IMG/VR virus record: IMGVR_UViG_3300034061_000872
Location: 1 to 28,225 of that record
Direction: 5' to 3' (one strand)
DNA: 28,225 bases
Source of the DNA: a virus
Shown: positions 5,704 to 28,043 of the stretch, piece by piece
Layout of the letters: each line of letters starts with the position of its first letter
Numbering within the stretch: the stretch's first letter is position 1
Program-made: the position numbers and the translations under genes
The notes under the pieces: generated by a model
What the model saw: only the letters and a program-made list of their open reading frames with translations
What the model was told of the DNA's origin: nothing
Databases searched by the model: none

Positions 5704-6701
5704 GCTGCTTTCCTCTTGGGCATGTTGGATCGAACCTTGTCGATGTCGAGCGCGGACAGGTTGCGGGTCAGTACGAGTTCCTCGACACGGTTCCAGTCGA
5801 GACCGGCTGACAGCAACTTGCCACCCTTGATGGATGCACGGGGCGACACTACATGGCGCAACTTCAACTCGCGCACTGCCTTGCGGAACGCTTGGACATG
5901 GCGCGTCCACTGGTCATTGGGCGAGATGGCGAGTTCCAGACGCTCGTCATAGTCCATCGCGACAAACGAGAACCGGTCGAGGGTCGCGGCATCCAACTGC
6001 GACCGCCCGACATACTGGGCATCAGCACCGGCTCCGAAGGTATTCGCAGCGGCGATGATGACGAAGTCGGCGTGGCGTTTAACCGTGCCGCAGGGGAATG
6101 CGGCGAGGTCATTGGCAGCGATGGCGTTGAACGCGAGCAGTGCCTGAGCGGACGATGCGTCAATCTCGTCGAACAGGAACACGCCCCCGCCCACATAGGC
6201 ACGGTACAGGTCGGTCTCCATGTACTTGCCTTCGGCGTTGATGAACCCTTGCAACTGATACGCCATGCCGACAGCGCCGGTCGAGTAGAACGGCAGTTCC
6301 AGTGCGTCAGCAGCCTGAGCCGCGATGGTCGTTTTGCCTGACCCCGCAGGGCCGACGAGGTACACATTCTCGCGAACAGACAGGGCGGCGAGGACATCCG
6401 CGAACACTGCGTGACGGTGACCCGCAGGGAGGGTACGGATGGTCGCACCCTGCTTGATTTCAATCCGCACAGGGCGGTGCTGCTCGACCGCAGCGACTGC
6501 CGCAGCAATGGCATCACGGCGGATGCCTTCGATGGTCTCAGCGTCAAGGGACGCAGCAGCCACCGGGGCGGGGTCAACCCCGTTCCAAATGGCGACGAGG
6601 ACATCGTCGGATGCGTTGGGCGACTTGCCCTGCCGCACGGCATGCATCTTCAGGTACGAACGGTCAGAGTCGCTGAGGGGCAGCGAGAAGGTGCGATTCA
6701 T
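5700..6701 (-). CDS. MoxR/CobS-like AAA+ ATPase
   Basis: 333 residues. The ATG at 6701 (MNRTFSLPLSDSDRSYL) is preceded by GGAGG at good distance, so earlier in-frame ATGs are rejected. Walker A GPAGSGKT at 117-124, Walker B VFLFDEID at 174-181, sensor-1 Asn in AAANTFG (about 220), arginine finger LDRF (241-244) and a sensor-2-like SPRAS (286-290). The pattern fits the MoxR/CobS/NorQ group of hexameric ATPases, which use ATP to remodel protein complexes together with a VWA-domain partner; the next gene is a VWA-like candidate. The N-terminal about 100 residues are variable and helical. Two bases separate it from the peptidase stop. The family call is firm; the substrate is unknown. Confidence 0.85.
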   Translation of the reverse strand: MNRTFSLPLSDSDRSYLKMHAVRQGKSPNASDDVLVAIWNGVDPAPVAAASLDAETIEGIRRDAIAAAVAAVEQHRPVRIEIKQGATIRTLPAGHRHAVFADVLAALSVRENVYLVGPAGSGKTTIAAQAADALELPFYSTGAVGMAYQLQGFINAEGKYMETDLYRAYVGGGVFLFDEIDASSAQALLAFNAIAANDLAAFPCGTVKRHADFVIIAAANTFGAGADAQYVGRSQLDAATLDRFSFVAMDYDERLELAISPNDQWTRHVQAFRKAVRELKLRHVVSPRASIKGGKLLSAGLDWNRVEELVLTRNLSALDIDKVRSNMPKRKAA

Positions 6702-6703
6702 GT

Positions 6704-7315
6704 TCAAGCCTCCAGTTTCAAGGTTTCGTACTTTCCGCAGACAGGGCAAGCGGACAGGCCATGCAGCCGGTTCGCCTGAAGGGCGGACACACGCGCCGTC
6801 CACCCGCAGCCAGAGCATTGCAGTTTCAGCAATCGCGTCCCCTGCTTCTTGCGGCTATTCGGATCGATTTTCGCGTGAGGATACGCGCCCAGAATCTGCG
6901 CGATGTCGGCAAGTTCCGCAGACAACCACGCACCGGCAGTGGTCGAGGTCAGCGCACCGACGAGGTCGATGCCACGGGCGACCCGTGCGAACTCGCCACG
7001 GTGACCGCACTGGATACCCGCCCAGACATGCGCCAGTTCGTGCGCGAGAACGGCGAGGACATCCAACGGACGGTCGAGGATGGGGTTGATGAACACCTCG
7101 AAGGTGCCATCCGCAGAGATGGACGGGTCGAATGCCTGACCTAGTGCCACCTTGCCTGACCGGGAACCCCGGTACCCAATGGGGAACCCACATGCGACAC
7201 GGTATCGACGCTGCTCCCACTGCGCGGGTTCAATCCCTGCACGGGGGAACACTTGGTGCTGTAGGGCGACGGCAGCAGCCGCCAACCACGGTTCGCGTTC
7301 GGTGAAATTGGTCAT
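6704..7315 (-). CDS. SprT-like zinc metallopeptidase with zinc ribbon
   Basis: 203 residues from the ATG at 7315, with AAGGAGAA upstream and an ATGA overlap with the preceding gene. HELAH (92-96) is the catalytic zinc motif (HExxH), with His105 in CGHRGEF as probable third ligand. The C terminus has a zinc ribbon, CSGC (167-170) and CPVC (190-193). This arrangement is that of SprT/Spartan-like proteins; the eukaryotic member degrades DNA-protein crosslinks, but the role of phage versions is not established. It is directly followed by the ATPase and VWA-like genes, suggesting an ATP-driven proteolytic or remodelling unit. That link is inference. Confidence 0.8.
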   Translation of the reverse strand: MTNFTEREPWLAAAAVALQHQVFPRAGIEPAQWEQRRYRVACGFPIGYRGSRSGKVALGQAFDPSISADGTFEVFINPILDRPLDVLAVLAHELAHVWAGIQCGHRGEFARVARGIDLVGALTSTTAGAWLSAELADIAQILGAYPHAKIDPNSRKKQGTRLLKLQCSGCGWTARVSALQANRLHGLSACPVCGKYETLKLEA

Positions 7316-20132: not shown

Positions 20133-20378
20133 ATGGCAATGTCACGCGCCAATATGAGCCAGCAGGTTTCCAAACCGGGCGGTCTTGGCAAGGTCAAGAA
20201 GGTGATGCGGGAGTTCAAAGAGGGAACACTGCATTCTGGCAAGAAGGGTCCGGTTGTCCGGAACCCGAAACAGGCTGTGGCTATCGCCCTTTCTGAGGCT
20301 GGCATGAGCAAGCCTGAGAGAAAGGCAATGGGCGGAAGCATTGATGGCTGCGCTATGCGCGGGAGGACACGAGCGTGA
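20133..20378 (+). CDS. DUF6496-like basic protein with DGCAMRGRTRA tail
   Basis: 81 residues. The centre (KVKKVMREFKEGTLHSGKKG followed by PVVRNPKQAVAIALSEAG) matches the DUF6496 pattern VM.EFK.G.L.SG ... KQAIAIALSEA known from phage, plasmid and bacterial proteins of unknown function. The C terminus GGSIDGCAMRGRTRA ends in a motif shared with the next three genes. The codons of RGRTRA contain GGGAGGA, the ribosome binding site of the next gene, whose GTG overlaps the stop. Basic. Confidence 0.75.
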   Translation: MAMSRANMSQQVSKPGGLGKVKKVMREFKEGTLHSGKKGPVVRNPKQAVAIALSEAGMSKPERKAMGGSIDGCAMRGRTRA

Positions 20379-20665
20379 AAAAGATGCGCTATCAGGAAGG
20401 CGGGGATGTAAAGTCCGAGTCGCCTTTCTCAAAGGGTTCCGAGATATCTGGCATTACCAAAAGCGTTAATGAGGGCGAGAAACTTCCCGGAGAAGGCTTG
20501 TTCTTCGCCAGAATGGATGAATCGGATGTCGATGTTCTTCCCGGACTTGTTAGAAGGTCGCGCAAGAAGGTCGTTGATGAAACCGGTGAACCGATGAAAA
20601 GTGGCGGCATGACCAAAAAGGATGGTCGTGACGGTTGTGCTATTCGCGGGAGGACACGAGCATGA
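20375..20665 (+). CDS. Small protein with YxEGG start and DGCAIRGRTRA tail
   Basis: 96 residues if GTG 20375 is used (GTGA overlap); ATG 20384 is the alternative. N terminus MRYQEGGDVKSES, C terminus KKDGRDGCAIRGRTRA. The middle (GLFFARMDESDVDVLPGLVRRSRKK) contains a segment also seen in the next gene (NDVGILPAVARRMRRKE): D-V-x-x-L-P-x-x-x-R-R. So this and the next protein are related. No known family. The last codons again hold the next gene's ribosome binding site. Confidence 0.7.
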   Translation: MKKMRYQEGGDVKSESPFSKGSEISGITKSVNEGEKLPGEGLFFARMDESDVDVLPGLVRRSRKKVVDETGEPMKSGGMTKKDGRDGCAIRGRTRA

Positions 20666-21120
20666 AAGGTCGAATCAAGCGTTACGAAGATGGCGGCGAG
20701 GTTAAGGTTGAACGCTCCAGTGGAATCGAAGAGATTCTTGGAAGCCTTTCGCCACTTTACGGTATGGCAACAGGCAAGGGCATGTTTGGCAATGATGTTG
20801 GCATTCTTCCAGCCGTTGCTCGTCGTATGCGCCGTAAGGAAATGGAAAGCAGTGATAGCCCAGTCAAGGTATCCATTGAGGTTGAAGAGGATATGGATAT
20901 GGAAAAGCCTATGGGCATGAATCGCGGTGGTCGAATGGGTTACAGCGAGGGCGGTAGCCTCAAGATGGTCGATAAGAATGGTTCCAAGGTTCCGTTCTTT
21001 GCCGCTGATGGCAAGGGCAAGATGCTGGGTGGCGGCATGACCTACGGAAAGGGTGGCATGACCCGTGATAGCCGTGATGGATGCGCTATCAAAGGCAAGA
21101 CCAAGGGTCGCGTTGTATGA
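20662..21120 (+). CDS. Paralogous small protein with YEDGG start and DGCAIKGKTKGR tail
   Basis: 152 residues from ATG 20662 (ATGA overlap); an earlier ATG at 20635 lies in the previous gene and is rejected. N terminus MKGRIKRYEDGGEVKVERS, a second GG motif at MGYSEGGSLKMVDKNG, Gly/Met-rich end (GKMLGGGMTYGKGGMT) and tail RDGCAIKGKTKGRVV. The shared middle segment DVGILPAVARRMRRKE marks it as a relative of the gene before. Function unknown. Confidence 0.7.
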   Translation: MKGRIKRYEDGGEVKVERSSGIEEILGSLSPLYGMATGKGMFGNDVGILPAVARRMRRKEMESSDSPVKVSIEVEEDMDMEKPMGMNRGGRMGYSEGGSLKMVDKNGSKVPFFAADGKGKMLGGGMTYGKGGMTRDSRDGCAIKGKTKGRVV

Positions 21121-21803
21121 AATACGCGTCTAAATATAAGTCTGGTCGTCGTATGCAACGATTTTCTGATGGTGGTCGTCTTGGGTACGAGGAAGACCCA
21201 CAACCCGGAATGCAGACCGACAGACAAGACTTTCAACCCGGCTTGAAGGTTGATACAAAAGACAAGCCAAAGGATCAAAGCAGATCGAAATCCAAGGTTG
21301 TGTCTAAGGAAAAGGATAAGGTCAACCTGATGGATGATCTCGCACCGCGAGAAAACCTTCCATCCCCGGATGACAATGTGACGGAAGGCGGTCCTACGCA
21401 GCGAAACAGTCCTCGTCGCCCTCTCGATAGAAAGCGTAGTTCGCTTCCTAGCGACCGTGCTACAGGATTTCGTGATCAGGTAAAAGAATCTGATGCGATG
21501 TCTCCTGAAGATCGTGAAGCATTGAAGAATTTTGCGCTTGGTTTGGCTGTTCCTCCTGCGGCTCGTGCTTTGGGAATGGTTGGGCGCGGCCTTCAAGTTG
21601 CCAAACGCCGATACGATATTGGCAGACGAGTCGATGCCATGACAGAAAACCAGCAGAAAACCGCCATGATGAGAGCCGCACGGGAGGCTCGTGAAGTTGA
21701 CGGTATGCGCTCTGGTGGACGGGTCTCAGGAAGTTCCATGGGCGGATCTGTCCGTGGCGGCGGCTGTGAGATTCGCGGCAAGACCAAGGGTCGGATGGTC
21801 TAA
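21117..21803 (+). CDS. Largest member of the GG/GCEIRGKTKGR small-protein set
   Basis: 228 residues from ATG 21117 (ATGA overlap). N terminus MKYASKYKSGRRMQRFSDGG, a long polar charged stretch (KDKPKDQSRSKSKVVSKEKD), a hydrophobic Ala/Leu segment (NFALGLAVPPAARALGMVG, about 142-160) that could associate with a membrane or form a helix in a virion complex, then a basic tail GGSVRGGGCEIRGKTKGRMV. The closing motif links it to the previous three proteins. The stop TAA overlaps the adaptor ATG (TAATG). Function unknown. Confidence 0.7.
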   Translation: MKYASKYKSGRRMQRFSDGGRLGYEEDPQPGMQTDRQDFQPGLKVDTKDKPKDQSRSKSKVVSKEKDKVNLMDDLAPRENLPSPDDNVTEGGPTQRNSPRRPLDRKRSSLPSDRATGFRDQVKESDAMSPEDREALKNFALGLAVPPAARALGMVGRGLQVAKRRYDIGRRVDAMTENQQKTAMMRAAREAREVDGMRSGGRVSGSSMGGSVRGGGCEIRGKTKGRMV

Positions 21804-22507
21804 TGCCTACCAGCGGTACCGCAGTTTTCAACCCTGAGTTTCGGGAACTCGTAGAAGAGGCTTTCGAACGGGCGGGTTTGGAGTTGCGTACCGGTTACGA
21901 CCTTCAGACTGCCCGTCGCTCCATGAACTTCATGGCGCTTGAATGGGCAAACCGGGGCATCAACCTCTGGACGGTGGAACAAGGTTCGCAGGTACTGACA
22001 CCCGGAACCTTCACCTACACCATGCCTGCCGACACCATTGATCTCATCGAGCATCAATTGCGTACAGATGCAGGCAGCACCTCTGGTCAGACGGACTACA
22101 CCCTTTCCCGTATCTCAGTATCGGACTATGCCCAGTTGAGCAACAAACTCACTCAGGGCATGCCGCTACAGATCTATGTGGACCGTCAGAGAGCCGCGCC
22201 AGTGGTGTATCTGTGGCCTGTTCCAGATAACACCCAGACCTACACCCTCGTGTACTGGAAGATGCGCCGTATCCAAGATGTTGGAACTGGTGGTGCCAAT
22301 ACCATCGACATCCCTGCAAGGTTCCTCCCCTGCCTTGTGGCTGGACTTGCCTACTATGTCGCCATGAAGAGACCTGATGCGGCTGACAGGCTGTCGTTCC
22401 TCAAGCAGGAATATGAGGTTCAGTGGGACTTGGCGGCAGGCGAAGACCGGGAAAAGGCTTCTGTACGGTTTGTCCCAATGAACGGGTACATTGGTAGGAA
22501 TGTTTAA
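21803..22507 (+). CDS. Putative head-to-tail adaptor protein
   Basis: 234 residues. FNPEFRELVEEAFERAGLEL then GYDLQTARRSMNFMALEWAN and RGINLWTVEQGSQVLTPGTF; later LSRISVSDYAQLSNKLTQGM and YLWPVPDNTQTYTLVYWKMR. This set is characteristic of a conserved connector protein of podovirus- and siphovirus-like aquatic phages (comparable to P22 gp4/gp10-type adaptors), with an N-terminal helical part and a beta-rich part. It would sit below the portal. Specific adaptor type is inferred; TTTAAATG joins its stop to the next gene. Confidence 0.75.
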   Translation: MPTSGTAVFNPEFRELVEEAFERAGLELRTGYDLQTARRSMNFMALEWANRGINLWTVEQGSQVLTPGTFTYTMPADTIDLIEHQLRTDAGSTSGQTDYTLSRISVSDYAQLSNKLTQGMPLQIYVDRQRAAPVVYLWPVPDNTQTYTLVYWKMRRIQDVGTGGANTIDIPARFLPCLVAGLAYYVAMKRPDAADRLSFLKQEYEVQWDLAAGEDREKASVRFVPMNGYIGRNV

Positions 22508-22885
22508 ATGGGCAAGCCGTTCTCATCAGGCAAGAACGCATTCGGGTTCTGCGACCGTTGCGGACAGCGGTATGAACTGCATGACTTGAATCAGCAGTAT
22601 GAGAACCTGTTGCCGATTGGCATCCGGGTCTGCTTCGAATGCATGGATGTTGATCATCCCCAGTTGCAGTTGGGTCGTGTCCCCATGGATGACCCTCAGG
22701 CGCTGCGTAATGCCCGTCCTGACAACACCTTCTTTGCCCCCGGCAACCAAGGCGCGAACGGTAGCCGGATGATCCAGTGGGGTTTCAACCCTATTGGAGG
22801 GGCGCAGGCATATGACACAAGTCTCACACCCAATGATCTTATCTCGACCGGGTTCGTCGGAACCGTCACGGTGGCTGTGACATGA
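22508..22885 (+). CDS. Zinc-ribbon-like tail/connector protein, 125 residues
   Basis: N-terminal zinc site FCDRCGQRYEL (14-24) and VCFECMDVDHPQLQLG (about 41-56), two CxxC pairs. The second half (APGNQGANGSRMIQWGFNPI GG) is Gly/Asn-rich and looks structural. Located between two adaptor-like genes and ATGA-coupled to the next, so a structural minor protein of the connector or tail is likely. No named family. Confidence 0.7.
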   Translation: MGKPFSSGKNAFGFCDRCGQRYELHDLNQQYENLLPIGIRVCFECMDVDHPQLQLGRVPMDDPQALRNARPDNTFFAPGNQGANGSRMIQWGFNPIGGAQAYDTSLTPNDLISTGFVGTVTVAVT

Positions 22886-23520
22886 ACTACACGCAACTCG
22901 TAAATCTGGTTAAACAGTACACGCAGAACGAGGAAACTTCGTTCGTTGCGAACATCCCTGTCTTTGTGCAGTTGGCGGAAGAGCGTATCTACAACGCGGT
23001 CTTCATCCCTGCCATCCGTAAGAATCAGATCGGCACCCTTACCCCCAACAACAAGTACCTAACTGTTCCCGCAGATTGGTTGGCGAACTTCTCGTTGGCA
23101 GTCATCACCCCTACCACGAACGCTCAGTCGTTCCTGATCGACAAGGATGTGAACTTCATCCGTGAGTGCTACCCGGACCCGGATGACACTGGGGTTCCCA
23201 AGTACTACGGCATCTTCGACAAGAACACGCTGATCCTTGGTCCCACCCCGGACAGCAACTATCAGGTCGAACTGCATTACTACTACTATCCGGAATCCAT
23301 CGTCACCGCTACCACCTCGTGGCTGGGTGACAACTTCGAAACCGTCCTTCTGTACGGAACCCTGAGAGAGGCTTACCTCTACATGAAGGGTGAACAGGAC
23401 ATCATCACCTACTACGAACAGAAGTATCAGGAATCGTTGGGTCTCCTGAAACTCCTTGGCGAAGGTAAGGATCGTCGTGATGCCTTCCGGTCTGGCCTCA
23501 ATAGGATTCCGGTCACATGA
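22882..23520 (+). CDS. Putative second head-tail connector protein, 212 residues
   Basis: MNYTQLVNLVKQYTQNEE, then IPVFVQLAEERIYNAVFIPA, LTVPADWLANFSLAVITPTT, YYGIFDKNTLILGPTPDSNY and a C-terminal helix WLGDNFETVLLYGTLREAYL ... YYEQKYQESLGLLKLLGEGK. The plan (helical ends, beta middle, last helix with Y.EQ.Y) is that of phage adaptor proteins of the gp4/gp7-like type. ATGA coupling at both ends. Structural assignment by pattern and order only. Confidence 0.7.
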   Translation: MNYTQLVNLVKQYTQNEETSFVANIPVFVQLAEERIYNAVFIPAIRKNQIGTLTPNNKYLTVPADWLANFSLAVITPTTNAQSFLIDKDVNFIRECYPDPDDTGVPKYYGIFDKNTLILGPTPDSNYQVELHYYYYPESIVTATTSWLGDNFETVLLYGTLREAYLYMKGEQDIITYYEQKYQESLGLLKLLGEGKDRRDAFRSGLNRIPVT

Positions 23521-23930
23521 TCTTTCAGACACAGACCGTCAGTTTCCGCGAGGAGTTGCTCAAGGGTATCCACGACCTACAGACGGACACCATCAAGTTC
23601 GCGCTCTATACCAGCATTGCGACTCTGAACGAGGACACAACGGTATACAGCACCACCAACGAGGTGGTCGGATCGGGTTACAGCGCAGGAGGCGTGGTGC
23701 TGACGGGAGTCACCATCAACAACTCCAACGGTGTCGTGTATGTCAATTTCAACAACGCTGCGTGGAACCCGGCGAGTTTCACCTCTGCTGGTGGATTGAT
23801 CTACAACTTCAGCAAAGCGAACCGTTCCATCGCTGTAATCAGTTTCGGAAACGACAAAACAGCAACCAATACATTCACTGTGCAGATGCCCACCAACACC
23901 TACACCTCGGCACTACTGCGTTTCAATTAG
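23517..23930 (+). CDS. Putative tail structural protein, 137 residues
   Basis: SFREELLKGIHDLQTDTIKF then ALYTSIATLNEDTTVYSTTN, and a beta-rich Gly/Asn end (GYSAGGVVLTGVTINNSNG). It resembles conserved minor virion proteins in aquatic phages that are encoded near the tail genes. The exact location in the particle is unknown. Confidence 0.7.
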   Translation: MIFQTQTVSFREELLKGIHDLQTDTIKFALYTSIATLNEDTTVYSTTNEVVGSGYSAGGVVLTGVTINNSNGVVYVNFNNAAWNPASFTSAGGLIYNFSKANRSIAVISFGNDKTATNTFTVQMPTNTYTSALLRFN

Positions 23931-23939
23931 GAGAATCAC

Positions 23940-24521
23940 ATGTTCATCAACAAGGCCAAGTCCTTTGACAATGTCGGTGCCGATGTCGCAAAGGGCGGCG
24001 GTGCAAACGCTCGTCTCAAGGGAGGCGGCATCTTCACGGTCCGTTGCCGTGACAAGGAAGGCAACCTGAAGTGGGAGCAGAAGTCCCACAACCTCGTGGT
24101 CAATGTCGGTCTTGCCGACATGAACACCAAGTACTTCAAGGGTTCCGGGTACACCGCTGCGTGGTATCTCGGTATCTACGGACCTGCCTCTTCGAACAAC
24201 CCGTCTTCGACCGACACCATGGCAAGCCATGCCGGTTGGACGGAGGTGACGGCTTACAGCAACGCGACCCGTCCTGCTGCGACCTTCGGCGCTGCCACCA
24301 CGGCAGATCCTTCGGTCATCGCGAACTCTGCCTCTCCGGGACAGTTTCTGATCAACGCCTCTGCCAATGTCGGTGGCGCGTTCCTGACAAGCGGAGACCT
24401 CCCCGGCGGTTCGTCTGGAACCTTGTTCTCTGCCTCTGACTTCGCAGCCCCCGGAGATCGCACAGTCCAAAACGGCGATGTCCTGTCTGTCACCTACACC
24501 TTCAGCCTTGACGCTGCATAA
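23940..24521 (+). CDS. Putative virion protein, 193 residues
   Basis: AGGAG upstream of the ATG. Sequence GGGIFTVRCRDKEGNLKWEQ, then HNLVVNVGLADMNTKYFKGS, AAWYLGIYGPAS, ending in Ser/Gly-rich beta sequence (LFSASDFAAPGDRTVQNGDV). I recognise the block around E..KSHNLVVN.GL..M...YF as a conserved tail-associated protein of unknown function. Its place ahead of the repeat protein and fibre supports a tail or baseplate role. Confidence 0.7.
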   Translation: MFINKAKSFDNVGADVAKGGGANARLKGGGIFTVRCRDKEGNLKWEQKSHNLVVNVGLADMNTKYFKGSGYTAAWYLGIYGPASSNNPSSTDTMASHAGWTEVTAYSNATRPAATFGAATTADPSVIANSASPGQFLINASANVGGAFLTSGDLPGGSSGTLFSASDFAAPGDRTVQNGDVLSVTYTFSLDAA

Positions 24522-24532
24522 GGAGTTTAAAC

Positions 24533-24709
24533 ATGGCTAAGTTTGCAAAGGGCGAGAAGGTCAAGTTGGTAGTGGTTGTTCCCGAAGGCCCGGTAGAGAA
24601 GTTCATGATGACCGAAGACGGTGTGATCATGTGCCTTGTCTCTTGGGTCGATGCGAACGGTCAGAACCAGTCCCGTTGGTTTCCGGAAGACGAACTCGTC
24701 AAGGCGTAG
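24533..24709 (+). CDS. Small SH3-like beta protein, 58 residues
   Basis: Starts MAKFAKGEKVKLVVVVPEGP after AGGAG and GTTTAAAC abutting the ATG. Middle EKFMMTEDGVIMCLVSWVDA, end QNQSRWFPEDELVKA. The short strands with a final W.PE.EL motif recall small SH3-like domains of phage and DUF-type proteins (...V.V.W....G......F.E.EL). Function unknown; possibly binds a partner in the tail. Confidence 0.75.
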   Translation: MAKFAKGEKVKLVVVVPEGPVEKFMMTEDGVIMCLVSWVDANGQNQSRWFPEDELVKA

Positions 24710-24712
24710 TCT

Positions 24713-25501
24713 GTGGCTGAGGGCGGCTGGGGATCAGGCACTTGGGGTCAAGCAGGTTGGGGGATGTCGGTCTATGACCGTTCCTCTGAAGACACCGCTG
24801 TCGCCAACGATGCCAATACCGGTGCCGGAACGCAGTTCAATGCACCGGTCACGGAATCCTCTGTCGCCTCAGACACCGTCTCGTCTATCTACAGTCTAGG
24901 CTCCAGCGTCTCTGAGACGGCTACAGGAGCGGACTCTGTACTGGCTAATGCCGACTTCAAGACCATGGTCAGCGAGGCTGCAATAGCCTCTGACGCGGTC
25001 CTATCCACCCCTGATTACAAGACCATGGTGGATGAGTCGGCGGTGGCCTCTGATGCGGTTCTGGCAGGTCAGAACTTCAACTCACAGGCATCTGAGACGG
25101 CGACCGGGCAAGACGAGTCTTACTCAGTGTTCTCATTCCCGGTGGTCATAAACGAGTCTGTGACGGCTTCTGATGACCCCTCGTCCTTGGTCGCCCTTGG
25201 CAGCAGCGTCTCTGAGACAGCCTCTGCGTCTGACATAGATGCGGGATTGGTTGACTTCAAGGCCATGATCAACGAGATCCTGAGCGCGGTTGATATCGCC
25301 TCAGGCGGGGTGACCTTCGAAGCGGATGTGTCTGAGTCCATAACCATCTCGGATATCACCTCAGGGGCGTATCTCTGGAATCCAGTTGATGACGACCAGA
25401 CCGCAAACTGGCAGAATTTAAACGACGACCAGACACCGGGATGGTCCGATGTCGATGACTCGCAAACAACGACTTGGGCTAACATCCCCACGGTGAATTA
25501 G
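24713..25501 (+). CDS. Tandem-repeat virion-like protein (9 x 20 and 3 x 11 residues)
   Basis: 262 residues. GTG start (24713) with only a weak ribosome binding site (AAGGCG). N terminus has Trp/Gly repeats (GGWGSGTWGQAGWG). Residues 46-225 are nine consecutive units of exactly 20 residues, typically VSExxxASDxVlxxxxFxxm. Residues 226-258 are three units of exactly 11, DDxQTxxWxxV-like. Such regular units suggest a beta-solenoid or fibrous stalk next to the tail fibre gene. No catalytic motif. A role in fibre attachment or adhesion is inferred from position and repeat form. Confidence 0.75.
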   Translation: MAEGGWGSGTWGQAGWGMSVYDRSSEDTAVANDANTGAGTQFNAPVTESSVASDTVSSIYSLGSSVSETATGADSVLANADFKTMVSEAAIASDAVLSTPDYKTMVDESAVASDAVLAGQNFNSQASETATGQDESYSVFSFPVVINESVTASDDPSSLVALGSSVSETASASDIDAGLVDFKAMINEILSAVDIASGGVTFEADVSESITISDITSGAYLWNPVDDDQTANWQNLNDDQTPGWSDVDDSQTTTWANIPTVN

Positions 25502-25511
25502 GAGTTTAAAC

Positions 25512-28043
25512 ATGGCTAGTACATTCAGCACCAACCTTGCTATCGAACTCATCGGTACTGGCGACCAAGCCGGTACTTGGGGTACGACCACCAATTCCAA
25601 CCTCGGTACTCTTATCGAGCAGGCCATCTCTGGCTATGTGACTCAGGCGGTTGCAACTGGCACTGACACGACGATCACCATCCCAAATGGTTCGACCGGC
25701 GTTGCCCGGAACATGTACATCGAGTTGACCGGTACGGGTGGTGCAAGCACGAACCTGATTGTGCCTGCCAACAAGAAACTCTACTTCATCTTCAACAACT
25801 CGACCGGCGCTGTAACGGTGAAGGTGTCGGGTCAGACGGGTGTATCGGTACCGACTGGCAAGAAGATGGTCCTTGTCTCAAATGGCACGGATATCGTCAA
25901 CGGTTTGAACTACATCGCTGACTTCGGAACCAACAGTTTCTCTGTCACGAACCTGACCGCTTCCAGTGCCACGATCACCAATCTGATTGCGACCTCTGGA
26001 TCCATCACGAACCTTGTCTCGTCGGATGCTTCAGCCACTGTGCTTCGCGCAGGTTCCGCCACCCTGACGCACCTGTCAGCGACCTCTGCCAGTATCACCA
26101 ATCTTGCGCTGACCAGTCTCACGATCAGCAGCCTTAGCATTACCAATGTCTCTGTTGCTTCGGCTACCGTTAGCAGCAACCTGACCCTCTCCGGCGGCAC
26201 CGCCAACGGCGTGTTGTACTTGAACGGCAGCAAGGTGGCGACGAGTGGAAGTGCGCTGACCTTTGATGGAACGCAAACACTTAGTCTTTTTGCAACTGGC
26301 AATGCTGTTACAAATTTAGAAGGCTCAACAACCAATAATGCCATTCTTCGTTTTAGAAACGGGACGACTGGCAACCTTGCTGGTTTTTATGGCAACAACT
26401 CGAAAGAGTTGATTTTTGAGGCAAACGGCGCGACAGAACAAATGCGCCTCACCTCGACGGGCCTCGGCATCGGGACGACTTCGCCTGCAAGCAAGGTTGA
26501 GGCTGTAGGTGCCTCGGCAGGCTCAACGGTATTTACCGCTACTGCTAACACAAGCGCAAATACAACCGATTTGTATGTTTTCCGTCGTAGTGATGCTGCG
26601 GTATCTGGGGCTATTCGCTACAACCAGTCAGACGCTGCAAGGCCGATGGTGATTGGCACGACTACTGCGCATCCGTTTGACTTTATGACAAATGGAAGTT
26701 CTGTTGCGCGTCTTGACACCTCCGGCAACCTCGGTCTGGGCGTGACGCCAAGTGCGTGGGGGAGTGGGCAAAAAGCCCTTCAGACTCCTGCTGGCGCAAT
26801 CTGGAACTTCAATAACGCAAACATGACGATTACGCAAAATGCGTTTTCGGATGGCACAGAGAAGTACATCAATAACGGTTTTGCGTCAAAGTACAATCAG
26901 AACAGCGGACAGCATATTTGGTCTACCGCAGCCTCCGGCACCGCAGGCAACGCCATCTCGTTCACGCAGGCGATGACGCTGAATGCGAGTGGCAACCTCG
27001 GCATCGGGACGAGTTCGCCTACTGGTAAATTGCATATTAGCGGCAATTTCATTCGTGTTGAGCAAAGTGGCGCGAATGACCTTTACATGGGGCGTGCTTC
27101 TGACTTGATTTCAGGTAGCCCAACTGGGGCAGCAATTAGATACGACGGTACTGCCTTGCGAATTGGTGCGTCTTCAACCGAAGTTGCAACTTTTTCTGGC
27201 GGCAACCTCGGCATCGGGACGGCGAGTCCGTCCGAAAAACTTGATGTTGTAGGCGGTGGGCTTGGTGTTGGCAATGGCACCATTAAAACGGTTGTTAGTT
27301 ACACGACTGAAGGCATTGTAGGCACTACTTCTAATCATGCGCTTCTTCTTTACGCCAACAACGCCGAACGCGCCCGCATCACGAGCGGGGGTGATTTGCT
27401 GGTGGGAGTAACTACCGGCAGTTATCACATTTTGAGAAAGGCTGTAACTAACGATGGCGGCAATACCACCGTTGAGTTTCAAAGCACAGGCGGTTCAACT
27501 AGTCAAATCTGGTATGGAGTAAGCGGATTTAACGCAAACGCAGCAAATGCCGCAACAAAAGTTGGCCGCGATGCAACAACATTAAGGTCAATCAACGCAG
27601 GCGGCACGGTCAACGCATCGGGTGCAGACTACGCTGAATACATGACCAAGGCTGGCGAGTTTGCGCTTGCCAAGGGCGATGTATGCGGGATTGACGCTGA
27701 CGGAAAATTAACGAATGTGTTTGCTAATGCAATTTCGTTTGTTGTTAAGTCAACCGACCCGTCTTATGTTGGCGGCGATTCGTGGGGGGCAAATTTTAAG
27801 GATGACCCCGAAGGTCTTGAGGCTGCGCGTCAAAAGGTAGACCGCATTGCCTTTGCCGGACAGGTTCCGGTCAATGTGCTGGGTGCAACGCCGGGGCAGT
27901 ACATTGTCCCTATTAACGACAACGGCGCAATCAAGGGCGTGGCGGTTAGCAACCCAACATTTGAGCAGTACCAATCTGCTGTTGGCAAGGTCATCGCCGT
28001 GCAGGATGATGGTCGCGCATTGATTATCGTGAAGGTTGCCTAA
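25512..28043 (+). CDS. Tail fibre protein with intramolecular-chaperone-like C terminus
   Basis: 843 residues; AGGAG then GTTTAAAC before the ATG. The first about 135 residues (FSTNLAIELIGTGDQAGTWG, TTTNSNLGTLIEQAISGYVT) form a conserved N-terminal virion-binding region. Residues about 140-220 are repeated TASSATITNLIATSGSITNL-type beta-stalk. From about residue 253 come fibre segments with three GLGIGTTSP/GNLGIGTSSP-like motifs. Near residue 703 ADYAEYM and GDVCGIDADGKLT resemble the start of the G2-peptidase or other intramolecular chaperone domains that self-cleave after trimer folding. It would bind the host surface. From about 26277 on, the coding is AT-richer than upstream, suggesting an exchanged receptor-binding module. 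Confidence 0.85.
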   Translation: MASTFSTNLAIELIGTGDQAGTWGTTTNSNLGTLIEQAISGYVTQAVATGTDTTITIPNGSTGVARNMYIELTGTGGASTNLIVPANKKLYFIFNNSTGAVTVKVSGQTGVSVPTGKKMVLVSNGTDIVNGLNYIADFGTNSFSVTNLTASSATITNLIATSGSITNLVSSDASATVLRAGSATLTHLSATSASITNLALTSLTISSLSITNVSVASATVSSNLTLSGGTANGVLYLNGSKVATSGSALTFDGTQTLSLFATGNAVTNLEGSTTNNAILRFRNGTTGNLAGFYGNNSKELIFEANGATEQMRLTSTGLGIGTTSPASKVEAVGASAGSTVFTATANTSANTTDLYVFRRSDAAVSGAIRYNQSDAARPMVIGTTTAHPFDFMTNGSSVARLDTSGNLGLGVTPSAWGSGQKALQTPAGAIWNFNNANMTITQNAFSDGTEKYINNGFASKYNQNSGQHIWSTAASGTAGNAISFTQAMTLNASGNLGIGTSSPTGKLHISGNFIRVEQSGANDLYMGRASDLISGSPTGAAIRYDGTALRIGASSTEVATFSGGNLGIGTASPSEKLDVVGGGLGVGNGTIKTVVSYTTEGIVGTTSNHALLLYANNAERARITSGGDLLVGVTTGSYHILRKAVTNDGGNTTVEFQSTGGSTSQIWYGVSGFNANAANAATKVGRDATTLRSINAGGTVNASGADYAEYMTKAGEFALAKGDVCGIDADGKLTNVFANAISFVVKSTDPSYVGGDSWGANFKDDPEGLEAARQKVDRIAFAGQVPVNVLGATPGQYIVPINDNGAIKGVAVSNPTFEQYQSAVGKVIAVQDDGRALIIVKVA

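Follow-up and report, generated by a model that had tools for sequence, protein, structure and literature searches.

Phase-locked repeat proteins encoded beside the tail-fibre gene of short-tailed phages: a possible modular spacer and fibre mount

The window, a viral record of 28,225 bases, comes from a short-tailed phage and encodes, just before its tail-fibre gene, a protein built almost entirely of short repeats. An N-terminal cap with three evenly spaced tryptophans is followed by ten units of about 20 residues and by a C-terminal ladder of tryptophans spaced by 11. Relatives of this protein mostly keep the cap, the two arrays and the phase between them, occupy the same place beside the fibre gene, evolve under purifying selection and change length by whole modules. 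The best explanation we can offer, and one to which we give nearly an even chance, is that of a structural tail protein serving as a modular spacer and as the mount of the adjoining receptor-binding fibre. The protein and its parts are as follows.

24713-25501, + strand: repeat-protein open reading frame, 262 codons, GTG start
24713-24781, + strand: N-terminal cap formed by residues 1-23 (VAEGGWGSGTWGQAGWGMSVYDR), made of three pentads whose Trp are residues 6, 11 and 16
24785-24847, + strand: unit 0, 21 residues (25-45)
24848-25387, + strand: nine 20-residue units (residues 46-225), a period reached by 0 of 20,000 shuffles
25376-25486, + strand: 11-residue Trp ladder W222-W233-W244-W255, defined by Trp positions, phase and 193 distinct 11-mers

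A sequence-only reading of the window had cut the protein into nine 20-residue and three 11-residue units, and its coordinates are correct, 24848 being the start of residue 46 and 25486 the end of residue 258. Self-identity of residues 46-225 is 0.325, 0.329 and 0.317 at shifts of 20, 40 and 60, the next best value being 0.143. Over all shifts between 5 and 44, none of 20,000 composition shuffles came as high (best shuffle 0.212), which upholds the 20-residue period. Position 3 is Glu and position 9 is Asp in all nine units, where the earlier reading had said most. One further unit had been overlooked. In this unit 0, Asp27 and Asp33 occupy positions 3 and 9, with Glu26 immediately before; counting it, the window protein has ten units of about 20 residues.

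The window protein matched no family in Pfam, PHROG or NCBIfam, the profiles of trimeric tail-fibre families included. A sequence search of the PDB found no solved relative, which counts against the spacer and mount reading, and a profile of 38 family members reached no PDB match better than E 0.46. With tblastn, the window protein had a single match among 50,697 phage records, to DSL-LC04 through its 11-mers; two further family members matched no phage record. Relatives were taken from IMG/VR, as the best 80 of 93 matches in a first scan, the best 80 of 345 in a profile scan, and the best 80 of 250 and of 213 in scans with two other members. The four scans gave 300 loci, some being the same contig with another flank; 294 passed the repeat detector and yielded 146 distinct complete proteins. 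Scans of bacterial and archaeal genomes with one pattern (4 matches) and with six patterns (26 matches), which detect only relatives carrying one of those exact peptides, gave no confirmed relative. The family phrog_12240 (function not given) is matched by 3 of the 38 members (best E 5e-11) but not by the window protein. Pfam matches of single members (Spt5 CTD in 6 of 38, PYNP_C in 3, PQQ_2 in 1, and others) and an NCBIfam match of the relative L149 (E 0.0065, far below the cut-off) were set aside as low-complexity. No title listed by literature searches was recognised as describing this repeat protein.

The consensus unit of the family, from 438 distinct units picked by Glu3 and Asp9, is VSETATGSDAVSALATFGAS. 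Glu3 is found in 1,033 and Asp9 in 984 of 1,084 distinct units, as counted by a detector that rewards both residues. Hydrophobic residues occupy the odd positions of the consensus and Ser, Thr, Ala and Gly mostly the even ones, as in beta strands; information content along the unit alternates only weakly. The earlier statement that the register is undisturbed by insertions is true of the nine named units. It fails for unit 0, with its 21 residues, and for the family: the first spacing is 21 in close relatives of the window protein and 20 in many others, and a 21-residue spacing is present in 50 of the 146 distinct relatives, so single-residue insertions are tolerated. Repeat length is thus near-constant, as in beta-solenoids (20 residues in nine units here; 20, some 21, in relatives), and we infer that one 20-residue unit would form one coil.

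The three 11-residue units (residues 226-258) are exactly as had been read, and the relatives bear out the unit type: Ile or Val at +3, Asp or Asn at +5 and Gln at +7 are common to 193 distinct 11-mers running from Trp to Trp. The shuffle test on the 11-mers alone is weaker (180 of 20,000). W222 is both the first ladder Trp and position 17 of the last 20-residue unit, a position filled by Phe in most units; the two arrays are therefore locked in phase. In 144 of the 146 relatives the first ladder Trp follows the last unit at a spacing of 16; in the remaining two the unit detector halted at an inner triad. The ladder has one step in 4 relatives, two in 37, three in 78 and five in 27, never four. 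An organisation of the ladder in exact triads was rejected as a rule, the steps being 1, 2, 3 or 5.

All seven Trp residues of the window protein sit in two ladders, 6/11/16 and 222/233/244/255. The first of these lies in the cap (GGWGSGTWGQAGWGMSVYDR), also overlooked before. Twelve cap residues (G4, G5, S8, G9, W11, G12, A14, G15, W16, G17, M18 and S19) are invariant in 38 of 38 sequences, a set partly retrieved with the cap peptide itself. Cap conservation is partly by choice, because the cap peptide was a search pattern in every viral scan; a period-5 aromatic triad is nonetheless present in 35 of the 38 distinct proteins in which the peptide WGQAGWG, used in the search, is missing. Such a triad occurs anywhere in the open frame in 143 of the 146 relatives and within the first 60 residues in 141, most commonly as WG-WG-WG (94) or WS-WG-WG (26). 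The exceptions are L299 and L305, with F/Y/Y in the same frame, and L301, with a glycine-rich domain at its start. The triad reads F/Y/L/I in some relatives, a point against the spacer and mount reading. Extra triads are found inside the putative rod in L221, L223, L224, L231, L233, L254 and L263, and before the cap in L167. In L148 (4513-5409) a WG triad follows the Trp ladder and is itself followed by one more ladder-like piece. L263 (3010-4209) has two different triads, FGFSAYAQTPYAS coming first; 12 units separate this from a WG triad, after which further units and the Trp ladder follow; its repeat gene is adjoined by a fibre-like gene.

The neighbours of the repeat gene are as follows.

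21803-22507, + strand: second SU10-type adaptor protein, Pfam E 3.8e-15, present in 103 of 118 loci (others possibly hidden by short flanks)
22882-23520, + strand: SU10-type tail adaptor protein, matched by Pfam SU10_adaptor at E 3.4e-24, with homologues upstream in all 118 eligible loci
23517-23930, + strand: 137-aa protein, phrog_644 (function not given), upstream in 118 of 118 eligible loci
23940-24521, + strand: 193-aa protein, phrog_8123 (function not given), upstream in 118 of 118 eligible loci
24533-24709, + strand: 58-aa protein, immediately before the repeat gene, present in 58 of 118 eligible loci
25512-28043, + strand: tail-fibre gene, 843 aa, 10 bases downstream of the repeat frame, two tail-fibre PHROGs

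Proximity to the fibre gene, remarked on for the window alone, is general. Among the 123 distinct loci of the first two IMG/VR scans, on which all neighbourhood counts are based, 103 of 104 eligible loci have a match to the N-terminal 130 aa of the fibre, on the same strand in 102 of them. The median gap between the two genes is 9 nt, a few not being adjacent. The rest of the fibre is matched in 46 of the 104. The exception, L154, has directly downstream a 263-aa frame (6001-6777), where the fibre gene starts elsewhere; we take this frame to resemble a GIY-YIG nuclease or homing endonuclease. The presence of two SU10-type adaptor proteins within one tail module is an observation in its own right, as is a run of four consecutive overlapping small genes at 20133-21803 whose products have a near-identical C-terminal peptide (DGCAMRGRTRA, DGCAIRGRTRA, DGCAIKGKTKGRVV and GGCEIRGKTKGRMV). 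The peptide appears to be a shared C-terminal tag; a protein of the Planktothrix phage Pag-Yong1 ends in DGCAKRGRTKGRFI.

Unit number varies between relatives, as the sequence-only reading had predicted. Among the 146 distinct proteins it ranges from 4 to 19 with a mode of 10: 4 units (1 protein), 5 (1), 6 (13), 10 (91), 11 (12), 12 (8), 13 (2), 14 (10), 15 (6), 17 (1) and 19 (1), with none at 7, 8 or 9. In this tally L167 is counted as 6 units, and proteins with an inner triad, of the L263 and L221 type, are hard to count. The changes are quantised. Taken among 100 distinct proteins at a length difference of 5 or more, all 42 close pairs of unequal length, which are not independent of one another, differ by exactly 80 (12) or 22 (30) residues. 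Six separate comparisons show the 80-residue indel (L037/L066, L193/L194, L036/L063, L016/L026, L255/L247 and L222/L206), in five of them within about 60 residues of the cap. L228 and L208 differ by five units, and single ladder-step differences also occur. A wider set of 229 pairs with at least 60% identity and unequal counts contains 58 that differ by four units, 142 by none (ladder only), 21 by one, 5 by five, 1 by three, 1 by six and 2 by nine, some of these last five kinds of difference stemming from a cap counted as a unit.

With a single FastTree tree, built from two flanking genes (135 of the 146 loci, branch support not considered), parsimony gives 33 unit-number changes, 15 of size four, seven of one, five of five, three of two, one each of six, seven and nine, and none of three. 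It also gives 30 ladder changes, 14 of them between 3 and 5. Recombination between the repeat gene and its flanks would inflate this count (L066 and L067 are counted apart). Given these limits of the tree, we regard the four-unit step as preferred rather than obligatory; behind it may stand a structural period or the manner in which units recombine. In the interior of 33 ten-unit representatives, identity between units is 0.399 at distance 1, 0.357 at 2, 0.364 at 3, 0.383 at 4 and 0.392 at 5; over all units it drops to 0.312 at distance 8. Similarity is thus raised at distances 4 and 5 alike, a strict four-unit super-period of the sequence is unsupported, and the four-unit step therefore stands as an observation on indels. 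Tuning of length to the fibre was also considered and rejected, unit number and next-frame length having a Spearman correlation of 0.006 (P 0.96; 88 complete frames of the 146), a result that counts against the spacer and mount reading. Ladder steps do correlate with next-frame length (0.435, P 2e-5, kinship ignored), and since relatedness is uncorrected we make no claim on this.

For the window gene compared with each of six relatives, the ratio dN/dS ranges from 0.17 to 0.25, and eight other pairs gave 0.15-0.24; two further comparisons were saturated. Together with the whole-unit length changes and the odd/even residue pattern, these values (0.15-0.25) back the strong structural constraint that had been suspected from the undisturbed register. 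The proteins are very acidic, with a median net charge of -30.5 among 100 distinct proteins (-36 for the window protein) and a median of 3 Lys/Arg against 34 Asp/Glu. Cys is absent from 92 of the 100. Cap and phase are kept and unit number is variable, a conservation gradient that favours the spacer and mount reading, as do the place of the gene between adaptors and fibre, the quantised indels and the purifying selection.

The earlier suggestion of a regular beta-solenoid was followed up by AlphaFold2 prediction of the monomer. In both models obtained, each 20-residue unit has two strands of 5-9 residues with short turns between them, but confidence is low, for the window protein (38 sequences; mean pLDDT 37.7, pTM 0.26) and for L154 (55 sequences; mean pLDDT 54.7, pTM 0.46). 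On these models a regular beta-solenoid fold is plausible, their low confidence weighing against the spacer and mount reading and the two strands per unit for it; the same picture could come from an obligate trimer. Foldseek matched no solved structure at E <= 0.001 and, in BFVD, matched five predicted proteins of uncultured phages. Re-examination of the weak Foldseek matches gave VIA rows at Z 12-15 with many right-handed beta-helix proteins, tailspikes included, and with a Ca2+-dependent beta-helical antifreeze protein (3p4g, Z 14.8). Because they are a second look at Foldseek rows, the VIA rows are not used as family evidence. L149, the most regular relative, matched designed helical repeat proteins in the PDB at E 1.1e-7 over the whole chain, with single stretches at E 4 or worse. 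We take these matches as low-complexity, yet count them as contrary evidence, since they keep an alpha reading in play. Known beta-helix and beta-solenoid proteins such as the P22 tailspike and the Ca2+-dependent antifreeze protein have about 20 residues per repeat in stacked strand-turn-strand form. Curlin CsgA is a further protein of this kind. The window protein resembles them in these respects on a low-confidence model; it differs in the two strands per unit of that model and shares no sequence match with them.

Similar genes can be recognised in named complete genomes. HTVC023P gp68, HTVC027P gp68, URG13121 of 023Pt_psg01 and WJZ48131 of DSL-LC04 are hypothetical proteins encoded, as in the window, just before a fibre gene whose N-terminal domain is the same, in phages whose portal is related to that of the window phage. 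By eye, a triad of hydrophobic or aromatic residues with period 5 lies close to the N-terminus in all four (HTVC027P has three such triads and DSL-LC04 four, again by eye), and like the window protein they have short beta-type repeats. These comparable genes speak for the spacer and mount reading. HTVC023P, 023Pt_psg01 and DSL-LC04 also share the C-terminal Trp spaced by 11, whereas the two C-terminal Trp of HTVC027P are not 11 apart. The central repeats differ from those of the window protein, being of the VTG.Q and G.VTV types, and the likeness is one seen by eye, tblastn with three family members finding only the 11-mers of DSL-LC04. In CRP-901, CRP-902 and Pag-Yong1 the fibre N-terminal domain is present but no such gene immediately precedes it, which tells against the spacer and mount reading. 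The first two have a WG triad at the end of another repeat protein, located between two adaptor-like genes; in Pag-Yong1 an adaptor-like gene is directly upstream of the fibre. We note that the tail region of HTVC023P also encodes three adjoining glycine-rich proteins of 443-491 aa (gp59-gp61; L085, 3242-7463), which by eye share part of their N-terminal half.

A precedent for a tryptophan dock exists in phage SU10. One loop of its nozzle protein gp17 carries Trp 839, 847 and 857 in a pseudo-threefold arrangement that holds the trimeric short fibre (PMC9509320). We confirmed the three positions in the genome. A second solved phage protein, 9nwi, has weak similarity to the SU10 loop region (E 0.0036) and also three Trp in the matched stretch. 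Three evenly spaced aromatics in one chain are what the 143 triad-bearing relatives have, and the fibre N-terminal domain lies downstream in 103 of 104 eligible loci. The SU10 dock differs in being a loop on a beta-propeller, with no 20-residue repeats, and in having Trp spacings of 8 and 10, not 5 and 5, the last a point against the spacer and mount reading; the likeness is of mechanism only. By analogy, the period-5 triad beside the fibre gene suggests a dock that may work like that of SU10. It is this precedent, with the triad near the fibre gene, that leads us to prefer a beta spacer mounted on the tail and bearing a docking motif at either end. Each 20-residue unit would give two short beta strands, and we propose that stacking of the units then yields a beta rod that is acidic and stiff. 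Its two docking ends in the virion would be the Trp-Gly triad at the N-terminus and the Trp ladder at the C-terminus, one facing the tail hub and the other the trimeric fibre. Gain or loss of units in frame and in register, most often four 20-residue or two 11-residue units at once, would change the reach of the rod and leave both ends unbroken.

Several other accounts have to be weighed. The repeats might trimerise into a thin outreaching fibre, the protein being an independent receptor-binding or accessory fibre and not its neighbour's mount. Acidic beta-type repeats of variable number do resemble fibre shafts, and an obligate trimer could account for the low confidence of the monomer model. 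Within the locus, however, it is the rest of the next gene that varies in a host-range-like way (46 of 104 loci, against 103 of 104 for its N-terminal domain), and the beta-helix proteins and tailspikes among the VIA rows, which would fit a fibre, come from weak Foldseek matches, none of which had reached the threshold; we consider this account unlikely. To much the same degree we doubt that the stacked Glu3 and Asp9 carboxylates bind Ca2+ in each coil, so that the rod stiffens only outside the cell. The model behind it is of low confidence and the consensus unit lacks an RTX-type nonapeptide, although the high negative charge, the position of Glu3 and Asp9 on the same alternating face as Val1, Val11 and Phe17, and the antifreeze protein among the VIA rows would agree with it. 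Such cation loading is compatible with the spacer and mount reading and not exclusive of it.

That the protein is non-structural, an acidic and largely disordered or helical chaperone for folding or assembly of the fibre that is absent from virions, strikes us as improbable. Exact phase, alternating residues, purifying selection and whole-unit indels are unexpected for a disordered linker, even if the acidic composition rich in Ser, Thr and Ala, the low pLDDT, the helical-repeat matches of L149 and the pairing of the repeat gene with the fibre gene could be accommodated. A bolder form of the spacer and mount reading is a "socket rod" with a built-in ruler. Each period-5 triad would socket one trimeric fibre, so that proteins with at least two triads would hold several fibres at set distances, and length would shift by structural periods (four 20-residue or two 11-residue units), four units being the true repeat of a beta fold of unknown type. 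We regard it as rather doubtful.

The family itself is new, as are its phase lock, its quantised changes of length and the triad that is a candidate for fibre docking. In these phages, portal-related to the SAR11 phages HTVC023P and HTVC027P, tails are largely unannotated, and the repeat family provides a marker gene between adaptor and fibre. It separates a conserved, putative mounting end from a variable spacer and is an example of length change in viruses by whole modules. If the triad is indeed a fibre socket, the sequence alone would predict how many fibres are held per tail protein.
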